Made by a program: the position numbers and the translations under genes. A model generated the notes under the pieces. It searched no databases and had not been told where the DNA came from. It was given only the letters and a program-made list of their open reading frames with translations. Shown here in pieces: positions 1,334-21,038 of a stretch of DNA of 64,000 nt (its first letter is position 1; the number at the start of each line of letters is the position of its first letter). The DNA is from Aurantiacibacter sp. MUD11 (GTDB lineage Bacteria; Pseudomonadota; Alphaproteobacteria; Sphingomonadales; Sphingomonadaceae), in the NCBI RefSeq assembly GCF_026967575.1, contig NZ_CP114054.1, positions 1,240,001-1,304,000 on the forward strand, written 5' to 3'.

Positions 1334-1752
1334 CCTGCCGGGGAGCCGGGCAGCCGCGGTGTCATTGTCCTTTTGGGCAAGATACCGAGGAAAGTCCGGG
1401 CTCCACGAAACAAGGGTGGCGGGTAACGCCCGCCGCGGGTAACCGCAGGGAAAGTGCCACAGAGAGTATACCGCCGATGGCCCCTAAAGGGCACAGGCAA
1501 GGGTGAAAGGGTGCGGCAAGAGCGCACCGGGGACCTGGTGACAGGGCCCGCATGGCAAACCCCACCCGGAGCAAGACCGCATAGGGGTCTCGCGCCTGGC
1601 GACAGGCAGGAGCGTTTCGCTCCGAGAGATCCGGGTTGGTCGCTGGAGCGTCGGGAGCAATCCCGCGCGTAAGATGAATGGCTGCCCCCGCAGCGCTGGT
1701 CGGCAACGAAACCGGCTGCGGGACAGAACCCGGCTTACAGGCTCCCCGGCAC
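1334..1752 (+). ncRNA. rnpB: RNase P RNA (type A)
   Basis: Catalytic RNA of ribonuclease P, which matures tRNA 5' ends. The universally conserved elements are present: GAGGAAAGTCCGGGCTCC near 1386-1404 (P4 5' side) and ACAGAACCCGGCTTACAGG near 1723-1741 (P4 3' side). P1 is a perfect 10-bp pairing of 1337-1346 with 1741-1750, and P2 pairs CAGCCG near 1351 with CGGCTG near 1711. Length of about 420 nt is usual. The exact ends are inferred from P1. The gene starts 2-3 bases after the amidase stop codon and ends against the stop codon of the convergent phosphatase gene, leaving no room for a separate terminator. Confidence 0.96.
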
Positions 1753-1753
1753 C

Positions 1754-16573: not shown

Positions 16574-18475
16574 ATGAGTTTCGCACGCAAGGTCTGGCGC
16601 TTGCTGGTCGGCATCAAGGACGGTCTCGCGCTGATTTTCCTGCTGCTGTTCTTCACCGCGCTGTTCGCGGTGCTCAGCGCGCGGCCGAACCCCGGCTTCG
16701 TGCGCGAAGGGGCGCTGCTGCTGGATATCAACGGCCAGGTGGTGGAAGAGGTTGCCCCGATCGACCCGCTACAGGCCTTGATTTCACAGACCGTGCCGGT
16801 GCGCGAATATGCCGCACGCGACCTTGTCCGCGCCATCGACGCCGCCGCCGCCGACGCTCGCATCGAGGTGTTGGCGCTCGACCTTACCGGCTTCCTCGGC
16901 GGGGGCGCGGTGCACATGTCGGAAATCGCCGGCGCGCTCGATCGCTTCTCCGCCGCAGGCAAGCCGATCTACACCTATGCCTATGCCTATGGCGACGACG
17001 CCATGCTGCTGGCAGCGCATTCCGACGAGATCTGGGTGGACCCGATGGGCGGCGTGGCCATCACCGGGCCAGGCGGCGAAAGCCTCTATTTCGCCGGGGC
17101 GCTGGACCGCTTCAACGTCACCGCCAATGTCTACCGCGTGGGCACCTACAAGAGCGCGGTGGAGCAGTGGACCGATCGCGGCATGTCGCCCGAAGCGCGC
17201 GAGAACCTGTCGCAACTGGTCGCCACGCTGTGGCAGGAATGGCGCGCCAACGTCCGCGCCGCGCGTCCGCAGGCCGATATCGAACTGGTGACCACCGATG
17301 TTGCCGGCTGGCTGGCCGCATCCAACGGCAATATCGCCGAAGCCTCGCTCGCCGCCGGTCTGGCAGACCGCGTGGGCACCCGCGTCGAATGGGGTGAGCG
17401 CATCGCCACCGAAGTGGGCGCCGATGAATGGTCCGACGAGCCGGGCGCCTTTGCCTCCACCCTCTACGATCCCTGGCTGGCCGAAGTGCGGCAGGGCGTA
17501 TCGTTCGGCAACAAGGGCCGCATCGCCGTGGTCACGGTGGATGGCGAAATCAGCGATGGCGAGGCCGGACCCGGCTCTGCCGGCGCCGCCCGCATCGCCC
17601 GCCTGCTCGACGAGGCCCTCGATGATGATCTGGACGCGCTGGTGGTGCGGGTGAATTCGCCTGGCGGCACGGTGACCGGCTCCGAGACGATTCGCCGCGC
17701 CATTCTGCGCCATCGCGATGCCGGCATCCCGATTGCCGTTTCCATGGGCAATTACGCCGCCAGCGGCGGTTACTGGATCGCCACTCCCGCGCAGCGCATC
17801 TTTGCCGAGCCGGAAACGCTGACCGGTTCCATTGGCGTGTTCCTGGTCGTGCCCAGTTTCGAACAGTTGCTGGCCGAATACGGCGTCACCACCGACGGCG
17901 TGCAGGCGACGGCCCTGTCCGGCCAGCCGGACGTGCTGGCCGGTTTCACGCCCGAAGCCGATGCCGTGCTGCAGGCTACCACCGCCAGCTTCTACACCCG
18001 CTTCCTGACGCTGGTTTCCGAAGCCCGCGGGATTTCGATGGAACGCGCGGACGAGCTTGGCCAGGGCCGCGTCTGGGATGGCGGCGCCGCGCGGCAGCTT
18101 GGCCTGGTGGACCAGTTTGGCGACCTTGACGCCGCCATCGCCTGGGCCGCCGAACGGGCGGAACTGGAAGAGGGCGAATACCAGGTCCGCTACCTCGGCT
18201 CCGATGCACCGAAGTACGACACGCTGCTGGCGCAACTGCTGCTGGGCGGCAGCGATGCGCAGGAGGAAGCGCGCGATGTTGCCGGTATCTTCGCCGGGCA
18301 GCAGATGGCGCAGCTGCACCGCGTACTGGATGATTTCGACCGGCTGATGGCCGTCGAAGGCGTGCAGGCGCGCTGCCTGGAGTGCACGGCCATGCCCGCG
18401 ACGCACCGTTCGCGGGGCGCAAGCTCGCCCTCTCGCTCGTGGTTGGAAGTGGCAGGACGCCTGCTTGGCAATTGA
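16574..18475 (+). CDS. sppA: Signal peptide peptidase SppA, 67-kDa type
   Basis: Membrane-anchored Ser/Lys protease that degrades cleaved signal peptides in the periplasm. The N-terminus has one transmembrane anchor at about 18-38. Two tandem S49 domains follow. The general-base Lys is in VGTYKSAVEQW (near 193) and the nucleophilic Ser is in NYAASGGYW (near 397). Length of 633 residues matches the long enterobacterial form rather than the short ~36-kDa form. The last ~35 residues contain CLEC and are basic and low in hydrophobicity; no known domain was recognised there. It is transcribed toward tRNA-Val, 56 bases downstream. Confidence 0.94.
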   Translation: MSFARKVWRLLVGIKDGLALIFLLLFFTALFAVLSARPNPGFVREGALLLDINGQVVEEVAPIDPLQALISQTVPVREYAARDLVRAIDAAAADARIEVLALDLTGFLGGGAVHMSEIAGALDRFSAAGKPIYTYAYAYGDDAMLLAAHSDEIWVDPMGGVAITGPGGESLYFAGALDRFNVTANVYRVGTYKSAVEQWTDRGMSPEARENLSQLVATLWQEWRANVRAARPQADIELVTTDVAGWLAASNGNIAEASLAAGLADRVGTRVEWGERIATEVGADEWSDEPGAFASTLYDPWLAEVRQGVSFGNKGRIAVVTVDGEISDGEAGPGSAGAARIARLLDEALDDDLDALVVRVNSPGGTVTGSETIRRAILRHRDAGIPIAVSMGNYAASGGYWIATPAQRIFAEPETLTGSIGVFLVVPSFEQLLAEYGVTTDGVQATALSGQPDVLAGFTPEADAVLQATTASFYTRFLTLVSEARGISMERADELGQGRVWDGGAARQLGLVDQFGDLDAAIAWAAERAELEEGEYQVRYLGSDAPKYDTLLAQLLLGGSDAQEEARDVAGIFAGQQMAQLHRVLDDFDRLMAVEGVQARCLECTAMPATHRSRGASSPSRSWLEVAGRLLGN

Positions 18476-18531: not shown

Positions 18532-18606
18532 GGGCGCGTAGCTCAGTGGTAGAGCACACCCTTCACACGGGTGGGGTCGCAAGTTCAATCCTTGCCGCGC
18601 CCACCA
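18532..18606 (+). tRNA. tRNA-Val (anticodon CAC)
   Basis: A full cloverleaf: acceptor GGGCGCG (18532-18538) pairs with CGCGCCC (18596-18602), the D-arm contains GCTC..GAGC, and the anticodon loop TTCACAC (18562-18568) has CAC at 18564-18566. The T-arm holds GTTCAATCC, and the 3' CCA is encoded (18604-18606). It decodes GUG. It lies convergent to the predicted small RNA that ends at 18645. Confidence 0.97.
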
Positions 18607-18644
18607 TTTCCCGCAGATCCCGGCAATCATCCCAGCGCACAGAC

Positions 18645-18672
18645 AAAAGACCCCCGCAGACAGCTGCAGGGG
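18645..18672 (-). terminator. Intrinsic terminator of the candidate sRNA
   Basis: On the minus strand a 9-bp stem (18664-18672 with 18651-18659, one G-T pair) with loop CTGT is followed by TCTTTT (18650-18645). No minus-strand protein gene ends nearby, so the terminator itself argues for a short transcript. Confidence 0.75.
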
Positions 18673-18826
18673 CCAGGTGGCAACGAACGAGGGTCGTCCG
18701 TCGCAGGGTCGCTTCGGAAACTGGTTCGAGACCTGCCGCGTGGTTTGGGCCGCTTCGGCTCCACCCCTCGAACTGGGGCTGGTGGTCGCCCCCTGTTGCG
18801 GCCCAGCCCCCGCTGCAGGTCTCGAT
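18645..18826 (-). ncRNA. Candidate structured small RNA next to a CRP-family gene
   Basis: The 18607-18975 stretch has no convincing protein gene. On the minus strand it has the layout of an independent sRNA of about 182 nt: a promoter-like element at 18833-18861, a predicted start near 18826, folded modules and an intrinsic terminator. Module 1 is a long arm: a perfect 10-bp stem pairs 18815-18824 with 18727-18736, and a perfect 8-bp stem pairs 18798-18805 with 18746-18753, enclosing a CCCC/GGGG apical hairpin. Module 2 is an 8-bp hairpin (18683-18690 with 18694-18701, loop CCC on the RNA). Module 3 is the terminator. No signature of 6S, SRP RNA or tmRNA was found. Function is unknown; control by the neighbouring CRP-like protein is inferred from the site at 18860. 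Confidence 0.65.
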
Positions 18827-18832
18827 GACCTC

Positions 18833-18861
18833 TAGCTACGGCACGATTTGCAGGCAGTCTG
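18833..18861 (-). promoter_or_regulatory. Predicted promoter of the candidate sRNA
   Basis: On the minus strand, TAGCTA at 18838-18833 can serve as the -10 element. A 17-bp spacer precedes a weak -35 (CAGACT, 18861-18856). A poor -35 overlapping an activator site is typical of activator-dependent promoters. The predicted +1 is near 18826. Confidence 0.5.
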
Positions 18862-18875
18862 TGACGCACATCACT
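18860..18875. promoter_or_regulatory. CRP-type binding site between sRNA and CRP-family gene
   Basis: TGTGACGCACATCACT matches TGTGA-N6-TCACA at 9 of 10 defined positions. Its centre, 18867.5, is 41.5 bp upstream of the predicted sRNA start at 18826, the position of a class II CRP/FNR activator site. It is also 101 bp upstream of the start codon of the CRP-family gene on the other strand, so autoregulation is possible. Confidence 0.7.
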
Positions 18876-18975
18876 CATCGCGGAAAATTTGCTGTTAAGG
18901 GTAACTCCGCAGGGATGGACGGCGATTGTCCCGCGACTTCCGCCGGACTAGCCCTTCCCAACAGGAGGCCGGGTG

Positions 18976-19674
18976 ATGACCGAACGCGACAACCTGATCG
19001 AGCAAGTGGCTCCGGACTCGCTGCTCCGCGCGCTTGAGCCGGCCCAGCTTGAAGAGCTGCTGCGATCCTCCAACCGGCGCGACCTGAAACGTGGCGAAGT
19101 GATCATCTCGCAGGGCGACGATGTTGGCGACTTTGCGGTGGTCCTGCTGTCGGGTAGCTTGAAAATCTCGATGGTCAGCGTGAACGGCCGCGAGATCATC
19201 CTCAACTATTGCAGCCCCGGCGACGTGGTCGGCGAAATCACCCTGCTCGACAGCGGGCCGCGCACCGCATCGGTCAGCGCTGCCGAGCCCAGTTCGGTGC
19301 TGGTCATCCCGGCACCCGCGTTCGAACAGGTGGCGCTAACGAACCCGGCGTCGATGATTGGCCTGCTGCGCGCCATGGCCAGCCGTCTGCGCCAGCTCAA
19401 CCGGGTGGTGGAGAGCGACCGCGCCTTTTCTATGGCTCCGCGCCTCGCCCGCGCCATGGTCCGCCTGCTCGATCCGGAAGACCGCGAGAACGGCAAGCTC
19501 CGCCACAATCCCAGCCAGGGTGACCTTGGCGCTTTCGCCGGTCTGGCGCGGGAAAACGTCAACCGGCTGCTTGCCGAATGGGAAGATCAAGGGATTGTGG
19601 AACGCAATGGCCGCGGACTGGAAGTGCGCGAGCGCGAATACCTCGAATTCCTCGCCGAGTTCGGGGACGACTAA
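18976..19674 (+). CDS. CRP/FNR-family transcriptional regulator
   Basis: A 232-residue activator/repressor with an N-terminal cyclic-nucleotide-binding domain (about 15-135) and a C-terminal winged helix. The phosphate-binding cassette GEITLLDSGPRTASV keeps the Glu and Arg that contact cAMP in CRP. The recognition helix reads ARENVNRLL, matching the RE...R spacing that CRP uses to read TGTGA. No N-terminal FNR-type cysteine cluster exists, so it is not an oxygen sensor of the FNR kind. The ATG at 18976 lies 7 bases after AGGAGG. A TGTGA-N6-TCAC site sits upstream, between this gene and the divergent sRNA candidate. Whether the ligand is cAMP is inferred, not shown. Confidence 0.9.
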   Translation: MTERDNLIEQVAPDSLLRALEPAQLEELLRSSNRRDLKRGEVIISQGDDVGDFAVVLLSGSLKISMVSVNGREIILNYCSPGDVVGEITLLDSGPRTASVSAAEPSSVLVIPAPAFEQVALTNPASMIGLLRAMASRLRQLNRVVESDRAFSMAPRLARAMVRLLDPEDRENGKLRHNPSQGDLGAFAGLARENVNRLLAEWEDQGIVERNGRGLEVREREYLEFLAEFGDD

Positions 19675-19682
19675 CCCCGCAA

Positions 19683-21038
19683 TCAGACTGCCTTGAATAC
19701 CGCGGAAACCGATAGCCCGGCGGAAGTCGAGCTGAACTCCAGCTCGCTGCCATTGTCGGCGCAGATTTCCCGCGCGATCGCCAGGCCCAGCCCCGAACCG
19801 GGAACCATGCTGTCGAAGCGAGAGCCGATGTCGCAGGCGTGCGCAATCTGCTCCTCGGTCATGCCCGGGCCATCGTCGCTGACAGTGATCCTCACCTCCG
19901 CTTCGCCGACCCGCGCTACCGCAAGTCGAACCTCGCCGCGCGCCCACTTGCCGGCGTTGTCGAGCAGGATGGACAGCAGCTCCGCCAGGCCGATCGGATC
20001 TACCGCCAGCACGACCGGATCGCGAGGTACTTCGGAGCGGAAGACGGTGTTCGGATGCAGCCGCCGCATGGCCTTCAGGATTGGTTCGACCAGTTCCGGC
20101 AGCTTCGCCCGGTTGCCCGGCGCGCGCGCGCCGGCGGCAGAACGCGTGCGGGCCAGCTGGTAATCAATCTGGTTCTGCATCGCCTCCGCTTGCTGCAGCA
20201 GCACCTTCCCGCTGTCCTCGCAATGCTCGCGCTCGCTCAAGCGCTCGGCTTCATCGGTAATCACCGCCAGCGGCGTGCGCAGCGAATGGGCAAGGTTGCC
20301 CGCCTGCACCCTGGCGCGCGAGACAATGTCGGCATTGCTGCGGATATAGGCGTTGAGGTCGGTCACCAGCGGGGCGATTTCCGATGGATAACTCCCCTCC
20401 AGCCGTTCGGCGCGCGCATTGCGGACGCGGGCGATGGCTCGTCCGAGCCGCGTCAGGGGACGCAAGCCGAAGGAGATGATCGCGGCACCTGTCAGCAGCA
20501 GCAGCAGGGCGAGGCTGGTCAGCCAGGCGGTGAGGTCGCGATTGAAGGAGGCGATGTCTTCGTCCAGTTCGCTCTGGTCCGTCGCGATGACGACATGCAC
20601 CTCATCTCCCTCAGGCGTATGCATGATCATGCCGTAGGTGATCGTCGGGCCGGTCGGGCCATCCTCGATCTCATGTGCGACATTGGGCGAATGGGCGACA
20701 CTCTCATCCAGCGAACCGCGCGTCATGCTGGCCGACTTGAGCACCGGCTGGTTCGGAACGCTCACCTGCCAGTAGAAACCTGACAGCGGCACTTCGTAGC
20801 GCGGGTCGGAAAGCGGGCGCGACAAGCGGGGTGCCCCGGAATCATCGATCTGAGTGAGGCGCGCCAGTTCGCGCACATGCACTTCCAGCTCCTCGTGATA
20901 CATCTCCTCGATATGCGTGGCGAACACCCGCGTCGCGGTGAACCAGATACCGCCGATGCCAAGCGCCACCCAGACGGTGATCGCGAAGATGAACCGGAGC
21001 CGCAGGCTGCCGGACGCGGTGGTGACGTCAGCGTTCAT
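19683..21038 (-). CDS. Two-component sensor histidine kinase (PhoQ/QseC-like)
   Basis: A 451-residue membrane kinase. Transmembrane helices lie near residues 14-35 and 172-194, enclosing a ~135-residue periplasmic sensor domain. A HAMP region follows, then the H-box AHSLRTPLAV and an ATPase domain with N box DNAGKWA, G1 DDGPGM and G2 GSGLGLA. The periplasmic domain is rich in Asp/Glu and His (HIEEMYHEELEVH), consistent with metal-ion sensing, though not proof. Its start overlaps the response-regulator stop by 4 bases (ATGA), so the pair is translated together. The neighbouring divergent operon is a heavy-metal RND pump, the likely target. Confidence 0.9.
   Translation of the reverse strand: MNADVTTASGSLRLRFIFAITVWVALGIGGIWFTATRVFATHIEEMYHEELEVHVRELARLTQIDDSGAPRLSRPLSDPRYEVPLSGFYWQVSVPNQPVLKSASMTRGSLDESVAHSPNVAHEIEDGPTGPTITYGMIMHTPEGDEVHVVIATDQSELDEDIASFNRDLTAWLTSLALLLLLTGAAIISFGLRPLTRLGRAIARVRNARAERLEGSYPSEIAPLVTDLNAYIRSNADIVSRARVQAGNLAHSLRTPLAVITDEAERLSEREHCEDSGKVLLQQAEAMQNQIDYQLARTRSAAGARAPGNRAKLPELVEPILKAMRRLHPNTVFRSEVPRDPVVLAVDPIGLAELLSILLDNAGKWARGEVRLAVARVGEAEVRITVSDDGPGMTEEQIAHACDIGSRFDSMVPGSGLGLAIAREICADNGSELEFSSTSAGLSVSAVFKAV

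Follow-up and report, generated by a model that had tools for sequence, protein, structure and literature searches.

Several bacterial small RNAs (sRNAs) are encoded divergently from their own activator, as in the OxyS/OxyR, GcvB/GcvA and SgrS/SgrR pairs, and Spot 42 and CyaR are CRP-controlled sRNAs of enterobacteria. Sphingomonads are pollutant degraders and are abundant in oligotrophic waters. In the literature that we searched, to which subscription papers mostly did not belong, we found few regulatory RNAs of sphingomonads and no description of an RNA with the GCGACCC segment reported here. The sRNA alphaR8 is defined by a single-stranded UUUCCUCCCU after a weak hairpin (PMC12559287), a 61-nt sRNA named SuhB takes part in catabolite repression in Sphingopyxis granuli (PMC6563040), and the non-coding RNAs of an S. 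granuli strain were predicted with Rfam 12 (PMC4741004).

The window that we analysed is a stretch of 64,000 nucleotides (positions 1240001–1304000 of a one-contig 2.79-Mb genome). We propose that the minus strand of 18645–18826 probably encodes an uncatalogued base-pairing sRNA that is activated by a CRP-family protein, most likely the one encoded divergently from it. Computation gives good support to a conserved sRNA gene at this place, with a class II promoter of the CRP type and a CRP-family gene beside it.

A predicted RNA gene beside a CRP/Fnr-family regulator

An earlier note on this DNA had read on the minus strand a terminator, an extra hairpin and a TAGCTA hexamer, together with a palindrome centred 41.5 bp from the predicted +1. 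Each of these is present (Table 1), and the distance from the palindrome centre at 18867.5 to 18826 is as claimed. A TGTGA-N6-TCACA-like palindrome at −41.5 of a predicted +1 is the arrangement of a class II CRP-dependent promoter. The exact form TGTGAN6TCAC occurs once in the window, and with one mismatch permitted there were 10 matches where 8.4 were expected; near-matches thus arise at the chance rate, so the palindrome alone means little.

The nested 5′ stems to which the note gave prominence fared less well. Folding yields a long 5′ hairpin whose closing stem has 11 bp, where the note had read 10, and the 8-bp stem is absent from the minimum-energy fold. Nor are these stems the main feature of the RNA: the 5′ region varies among relatives from 0 to ~150 nt, and the conserved part consists of GCGACCC, a hairpin and the terminator. 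The window RNA carries a 114-nt, mostly hairpin-forming leader ahead of GCGACCC; a comparable closing stem is found in genome G006, and the extension is missing from short forms. Both strands of 18640–18830 fold better than shuffles (z = −4.4 for the minus strand and −3.5 for the plus strand), so folding alone leaves the strand unsettled. The predicted RNA combines an intrinsic terminator and U-tail with a conserved, mostly accessible segment, as expected of an Hfq-type sRNA. A tRNA-linked transcript was rejected: tRNA-Val lies on the opposite strand, and none was found in the G006 locus.

Table 1. Features of the RNA locus and its surroundings (window positions)
Feature	Position	Strand	Remarks
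Predicted small RNA, 182 nt	18645–18826	−	From predicted +1 (18826) to end of terminator T-run
Conserved RNA core: GCGACCC, hairpin, short linker, terminator	18645–18712	−	R1 covariance match; alignments A2 and A4
GCGACCC, candidate seed	18706–18712	−	Identical in 24/24 CRP-gene-linked copies; mean P(unpaired) 0.78 in window RNA
Core hairpin	18680–18704	−	By folding; helix retained with compensatory changes in relatives
Intrinsic terminator	18645–18674	−	Stem 18649–18674, 11 pairs, 4-nt loop, T-run to 18645
5′ extension, one long hairpin	18726–18825	−	Closing stem 18815–18825 with 18726–18736
−10-like TAGCTA	18833–18838	−	A at hexamer position 2 in 24/24 CRP-gene-linked copies
CRP-type palindrome TGTGAN6TCACT (TGTGACGCACATCACT)	18860–18875	.	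Between RNA and regulator gene; centre 41.5 bp from predicted +1
CRP/Fnr-family regulator gene	18973–19674	+	cNMP_binding and HTH_Crp_2; divergent from RNA
S49-peptidase gene	16574–18475	+	Neighbour of RNA locus
tRNA-Val	18532–18606	+	Neighbour of RNA locus
Histidine kinase gene	19683–21038	−	Beyond regulator gene

The regulator gene encodes a protein with PF00027 (1.5e-22) and PF13545 (1e-13) domains, which places it in the CRP/Fnr superfamily, and its best PDB relatives are Crp/Fnr proteins. The cyclic-nucleotide cassette (GEITLLDSGPRTA) and the R-E-x-x-x-R helix pattern that the note had pointed out are both there; the latter, within the motif ARENVNR, we take to be equivalent to R180/E181/R185 of E. 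coli. The protein falls outside CRP proper as modelled by NCBIfam NF008732, scoring 74.4 bits against a curated cut-off of 266. Five other matches to it occur in the same genome. Among 39 other genomes of the genus, only G006 has a close relative (77%). In a 397-genome sample of the family these are found in G436 (64%), G196 (63%) and G417 (55%), followed by a gap to 46% and less, and in genus g62, that of G436, the gene is present in 22 of 100 genomes at E ≤ 1e-55. Comparison of the protein with named genome contigs found no relative, and a sequence-pattern scan returned 16 stretches, most of which belong to other phyla or classes, with a G006 contig (L071) among them.

The note had recognised no known family in the RNA, and Rfam bears this out. 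For the window RNA, Rfam 15 gave no family at the gathering threshold and no match beyond chance; for seven family-wide loci there was no match at E ≤ 1, relatives being sub-threshold or without a match. We rejected 6S RNA (RF00013), which has no match at the RNA locus; the 6S candidate of this genome lies elsewhere, at 226274–226445 (L033; 44.6 bits, just below the cut-off of 46.4). A bacterial RNase P class A RNA is located at window positions 1338–1753 (276 bits).

Conservation and linkage of the RNA unit in relatives

We assembled 26 loci at which the CRP-family gene has a close relative (55–100% identity, the window included); they were chosen by the protein and not by the RNA. The palindrome (at least 8 of 10 fixed bases) was present in 25 of them and the divergent RNA in 24. 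One locus (L036 in G196, 63%) has the gene and the site with the RNA missing, and another (L037 in G417, 55%) has neither site nor RNA. The TGTGA-type site, whose persistence in close homologues the note had put at issue, is kept at the same threshold in 25 of 25 upstream regions at ≥59% protein identity, and the proposed synteny of RNA, site and CRP-family gene is conserved in relatives. Five more distant CRP relatives (L045, L048, L053, L054 and L061) have a full palindrome upstream and no RNA match; a conserved site by itself could therefore reflect autoregulation.

Within the 24 RNA-bearing loci, GCGACCC is identical throughout and stands at varying distances from the start of the site (index 49, 68–70, 86–104, 120 and 163–197), which ties it to the hairpin–terminator core and not to the promoter at loci with a relative of the regulator. 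When these loci are anchored on the site, the second base of the hexamer on the RNA side, which lies 21 nt after the site, is A in every one (24/24); with a start 7 nt beyond the hexamer, the site centre falls at −41.5. In five short forms (L035, L083, L085, L086 and L091) the predicted start is GCGACCC itself. On the gene side, about as far from the palindrome, one position is T-rich, though less markedly so, which suggests that the palindrome may serve both directions. In the G006 locus (L034 1–2753, 3848–5125), the S49 peptidase and tRNA-Val do not flank the RNA–regulator unit; by reading, the flanks hold ABC-transporter, small cNMP-binding-like (weak match) and seryl-tRNA synthetase-like genes, so the unit occurs in different neighbourhoods.

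The stems are retained in relatives with compensatory changes, a check that the note had called for. Alignment A2 contains 23 sequences, 22 of them distinct, with the longer variant L093 excluded. Its 15 pairs are formed in 97.5% of cells, and 11 of the 15 have changed on both sides; none of 500 shuffles was as good, and slid structures were 44–60% paired. The terminator accounts for 11 pairs, which any intrinsic terminator would be expected to keep, and the non-terminator helix for the other four, all four with two-sided changes, the helix-1 count being limited by the imperfect alignment of variable loops by MAFFT. Of the 23 full-length models (L093 excluded), 21 leave GCGACCC unpaired more often than the median 7-mer, L081 by a very narrow margin. 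Its P(unpaired) is 0.89–0.99 in the five short forms (window value in Table 1), and long leaders reduce the predicted access in some relatives, to 0.15 in L082 and 0.26 in L099.

Across the 100 genomes of g62, a match to the R1 covariance model lay beside the gene in all 22 gene-bearing genomes (43.7–81.5 bits), and 10 of the 78 genomes without the gene had R1 matches at 31.5–41.6 bits. Because 21 of these 22 linked sequences went into building R1, the one informative point is that no strong match turned up elsewhere, and the lowest linked score (43.7) stands little above the highest unlinked one (41.6). In the window, R1 matched 18645–18717 at 42.6 bits, the window sequence being one of the 23 in the model.

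Thirteen weaker matches (L123–L135) all have GCGACCC and a terminator-like end, with no CRP palindrome (at least 8 of 10 fixed bases) within 300 nt upstream. By reading, L126–L129, L131, L133 and L135 have in common a TGCA...TGCA palindrome-like stretch immediately 5′ of the core. Their neighbours are partly similar, and a CRP gene is found in the genome of L133 and not in those of the others; these siblings are possibly 3′-UTR-derived or under another regulator. The genome studied here also has a second GCGACCC-type candidate just before the window start, at 1237341–1237417 on the plus strand (26.8 bits, E = 0.0067; L137 1501–1577). It has a hairpin and a terminator and faces a convergent sigma-70-family gene that reads as rpoH-like; by reading only, no CRP site was noticed in the 300 bases upstream.

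Spacing between the site and GCGACCC across the family

We scanned 397 genomes of the family for the pattern GTGAN6TCAC-N(20–50)-GCGACCC. Among the 150 matches listed, 26 had a spacer of 34, and spacers other than 33–35 averaged 3.9. The Poisson probability of this peak is ~1e-13 with relatedness ignored, several of the matches being close relatives. A class control of 385 genomes, five from the family and 380 from other orders, gave 117 matches outside the family, of which 3 had a spacer of 34 against a mean of 3.8 per other spacer. We conclude that the arrangement of site and GCGACCC is genuine within the family; in genomes of other orders no such peak is seen. From the 34-nt spacing peak, GCGACCC is the predicted 5′ end.

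Forty of the listed matches had a spacer of 33–35. The G436 locus L035 is among them, and of the remaining 39 we inspected 36. A script found a hairpin and T-tail after GCGACCC in 26 of these 36 pattern-derived loci. With L239, which was added from R1 and not from the pattern, terminators were found by script in 27 of 37 loci (18 of 25 at spacer 34), and these 27 span 11 genus labels, seven coming from one genus, g71. The ten loci with no script terminator are L211, L212, L217, L218, L221, L226, L228, L237, L238 and L243; most look like background, some of it coding, and L217, L218 and L228 have hairpins by eye. At L220 the script cut within the T-run, and the terminator lies further along. 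In the family-wide set, hexamer position 2 is A in 17 of 20 loci, some of which (L217, L218 and L228) have no script-found terminator.

CRP/Fnr regulators with cNMP_binding and HTH_Crp_2 domains adjoin the RNA divergently at L204, L218, L223 and L231 and in tandem at L224 and L225, and L232, a near-copy of L231, has a similar regulator frame by reading. This gives a CRP-type neighbour at 7 of the 37 family-wide loci, a possible undercount, as detection relied on phmmer with one query, which missed L223 and L232, and on Pfam for 25 chosen proteins. The other neighbours are mixed and include glutamine synthetase, aldehyde dehydrogenase, a chromate transporter and TetR, and several of those tested, that of L227 included, had no match in Pfam. 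The view of the earlier note that the sRNA lies beside its own regulator is likely to be right: the unit is conserved with the gene, although no CRP-type gene was detected beside most family copies. For the window, we regard the neighbouring gene as the likely regulator of the RNA.

A family-wide search with R1 found a match in at least 24 of 397 genomes (12 candidates scored per genome). Among the 21 match sequences displayed, five (L165, L166, L167, L170 and L171) do not contain GCGACCC and probably represent terminators matched by chance. The 6.9-Mb genome G074 has two GCGACCC RNA matches (L157/L213 and L173/L240); in both, a CRP-type site with 9 of the 10 fixed bases precedes the model match by 44 nt. 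In G401 (L164/L239), two palindromes (9 of 10 fixed bases each) lie 40 bp apart upstream of GCGACCC. By computation, the RNA unit shows conservation, fixed spacing, covariation and linkage. The case for the RNA rests on its relatives, in that 24 of 26 loci keep the whole unit and the spacing between site and core is non-random in the family.

Proposed mechanism, alternatives and comparison

In the model that we favour, a CRP-family activator, most likely the product of 18973–19674, would bind TGTGAN6TCAC at −41.5 in the class II position and turn on the RNA, and the same palindrome probably controls the regulator's own gene too. The transcript would end at the intrinsic terminator with a U-tail, the invariant GCGACCC preceding the hairpin. 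Pairing of GCGACCC with mRNAs appears, from the sequence, to be the most plausible mode of action: the segment would most likely pair with GGGUCGC-type mRNA sequences, probably with Hfq, and alter translation or decay. In short-form relatives the transcript would start at GCGACCC, to which this genome would add its 114-nt leader. Transcription, the binding protein and its ligand, the part played by Hfq, the targets and the direction of regulation are what we infer here.

The RNA could be real and its site of CRP type and yet the activator be another CRP/Fnr protein, such as the main CRP, with adjacency reflecting shared regulation. We think this unlikely, while giving it some weight: a CRP-type gene was found beside only 7 of 37 family-wide loci (detection being incomplete), and the genome has five further matches to the regulator. 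On the other hand, every g62 genome with an RNA match above 43 bits also has the gene (such matches in 22 of 22 genomes with it versus 0 of 78 without it, in a model that favours the linked form), and CRP-type genes of other lineages adjoin the RNA as well. Very unlikely, in our judgement, is the absence of any functional RNA, with the palindrome serving autoregulation only and the minus-strand hairpins being terminators or incidental inverted repeats. Such an account would accommodate the sites without an RNA match in L036, L045, L048, L053, L054 and L061 and the better-than-shuffled folding of both strands of 18640–18830, but it is opposed by the invariant GCGACCC, the fixed −10 spacing on the RNA side, the compensatory changes in the hairpin that is not the terminator, and the peak in spacing at 34 nt, seen at loci mostly without a detected CRP gene.

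The remaining alternatives accept a transcript and differ over what it is. That its main role is to capture another sRNA or a protein, as a sponge or decoy, with the long 5′ hairpin adding a binding platform, seems improbable. The constancy of GCGACCC beside a variable 5′ extension would suit this role, and CrfA is a sponge RNA in Caulobacter carbon starvation (PMC12559287); however, no complementary partner was identified, and duplex energies with suhB-type matches, which ignore the folding of each RNA on its own, were uninformative. We rejected identity with alphaR8/suhB and consider it extremely unlikely that the window RNA is even a divergent alphaR8 (MmgR/SisA–D, Rfam suhB) member. Both RNAs end in a short linker and a G+C-rich terminator, and the weak sibling L130 scored 29.3 bits with the suhB model (RF00519, cut-off 41 bits). 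Yet the window RNA has no suhB match at E ≤ 10, UUUCCUCCCU is absent from 18645–18826, and a suhB-type match over the cut-off lies elsewhere in the genome, at 2116200–2116276 (49.8 bits; L145 and L146 are suhB-type loci). A second suhB-type match, at 69279–69359, is below the cut-off (35.9 bits). It is scarcely credible to us that a small protein is encoded here, with the transcript as its leader or its message: an 83-codon minus-strand frame (18627–18878) overlaps the region, but its listed ATG is upstream of the predicted +1 and the core gaps among relatives are not multiples of three.

Returning to the sRNA that we favour, we can offer a broader picture tentatively, as one that may well prove wrong. 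The GCGACCC RNAs could be a family-wide class of sibling sRNAs that serves Sphingomonadaceae-type bacteria as the RNA arm of CRP-type (cyclic-nucleotide or carbon) signalling, with a promoter that starts the transcript exactly at the GCGACCC seed. Lineages would have coupled the RNA to different CRP/Fnr regulators; some, this genome among them, would have added a structured leader that could gate the seed, and the further copy beside the rpoH-like gene would be under other control. With its defined promoter, its predicted fixed 5′ end and a candidate regulator, this uncatalogued RNA family provides an entry to carbon or cyclic-nucleotide control in sphingomonads, and makes it testable whether one RNA family has been coupled repeatedly to different CRP/Fnr regulators.

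The alphaR8/MmgR/SisA–D RNAs (RF00519, suhB) are likewise alphaproteobacterial sRNAs, multi-copy in some genomes and linked to carbon use in the papers cited here. As described there, alphaR8 has a weak hairpin followed by UUUCCUCCCU, whereas the window RNA has GCGACCC followed by a strong hairpin. S. granuli SuhB, with its 61 nt and its part in catabolite repression (PMC6563040), may or may not be related to the window RNA. 6S RNA is similar in size (~180 nt) and, like the window RNA, has a long 5′ hairpin. Spot 42 and CyaR also have a site for a cyclic-nucleotide-type regulator at the promoter of a short, terminator-ended RNA; here, the site is at −41.5, a CRP-family gene lies next to the RNA in several lineages, and we claim no sequence relation. 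The divergent layout of regulator and sRNA around one intergenic control region is that of OxyS/OxyR, GcvB/GcvA and SgrS/SgrR, but those regulators are of the LysR or SgrR type, whereas here the regulator is of the CRP/Fnr type and the RNA is apparently unrelated.
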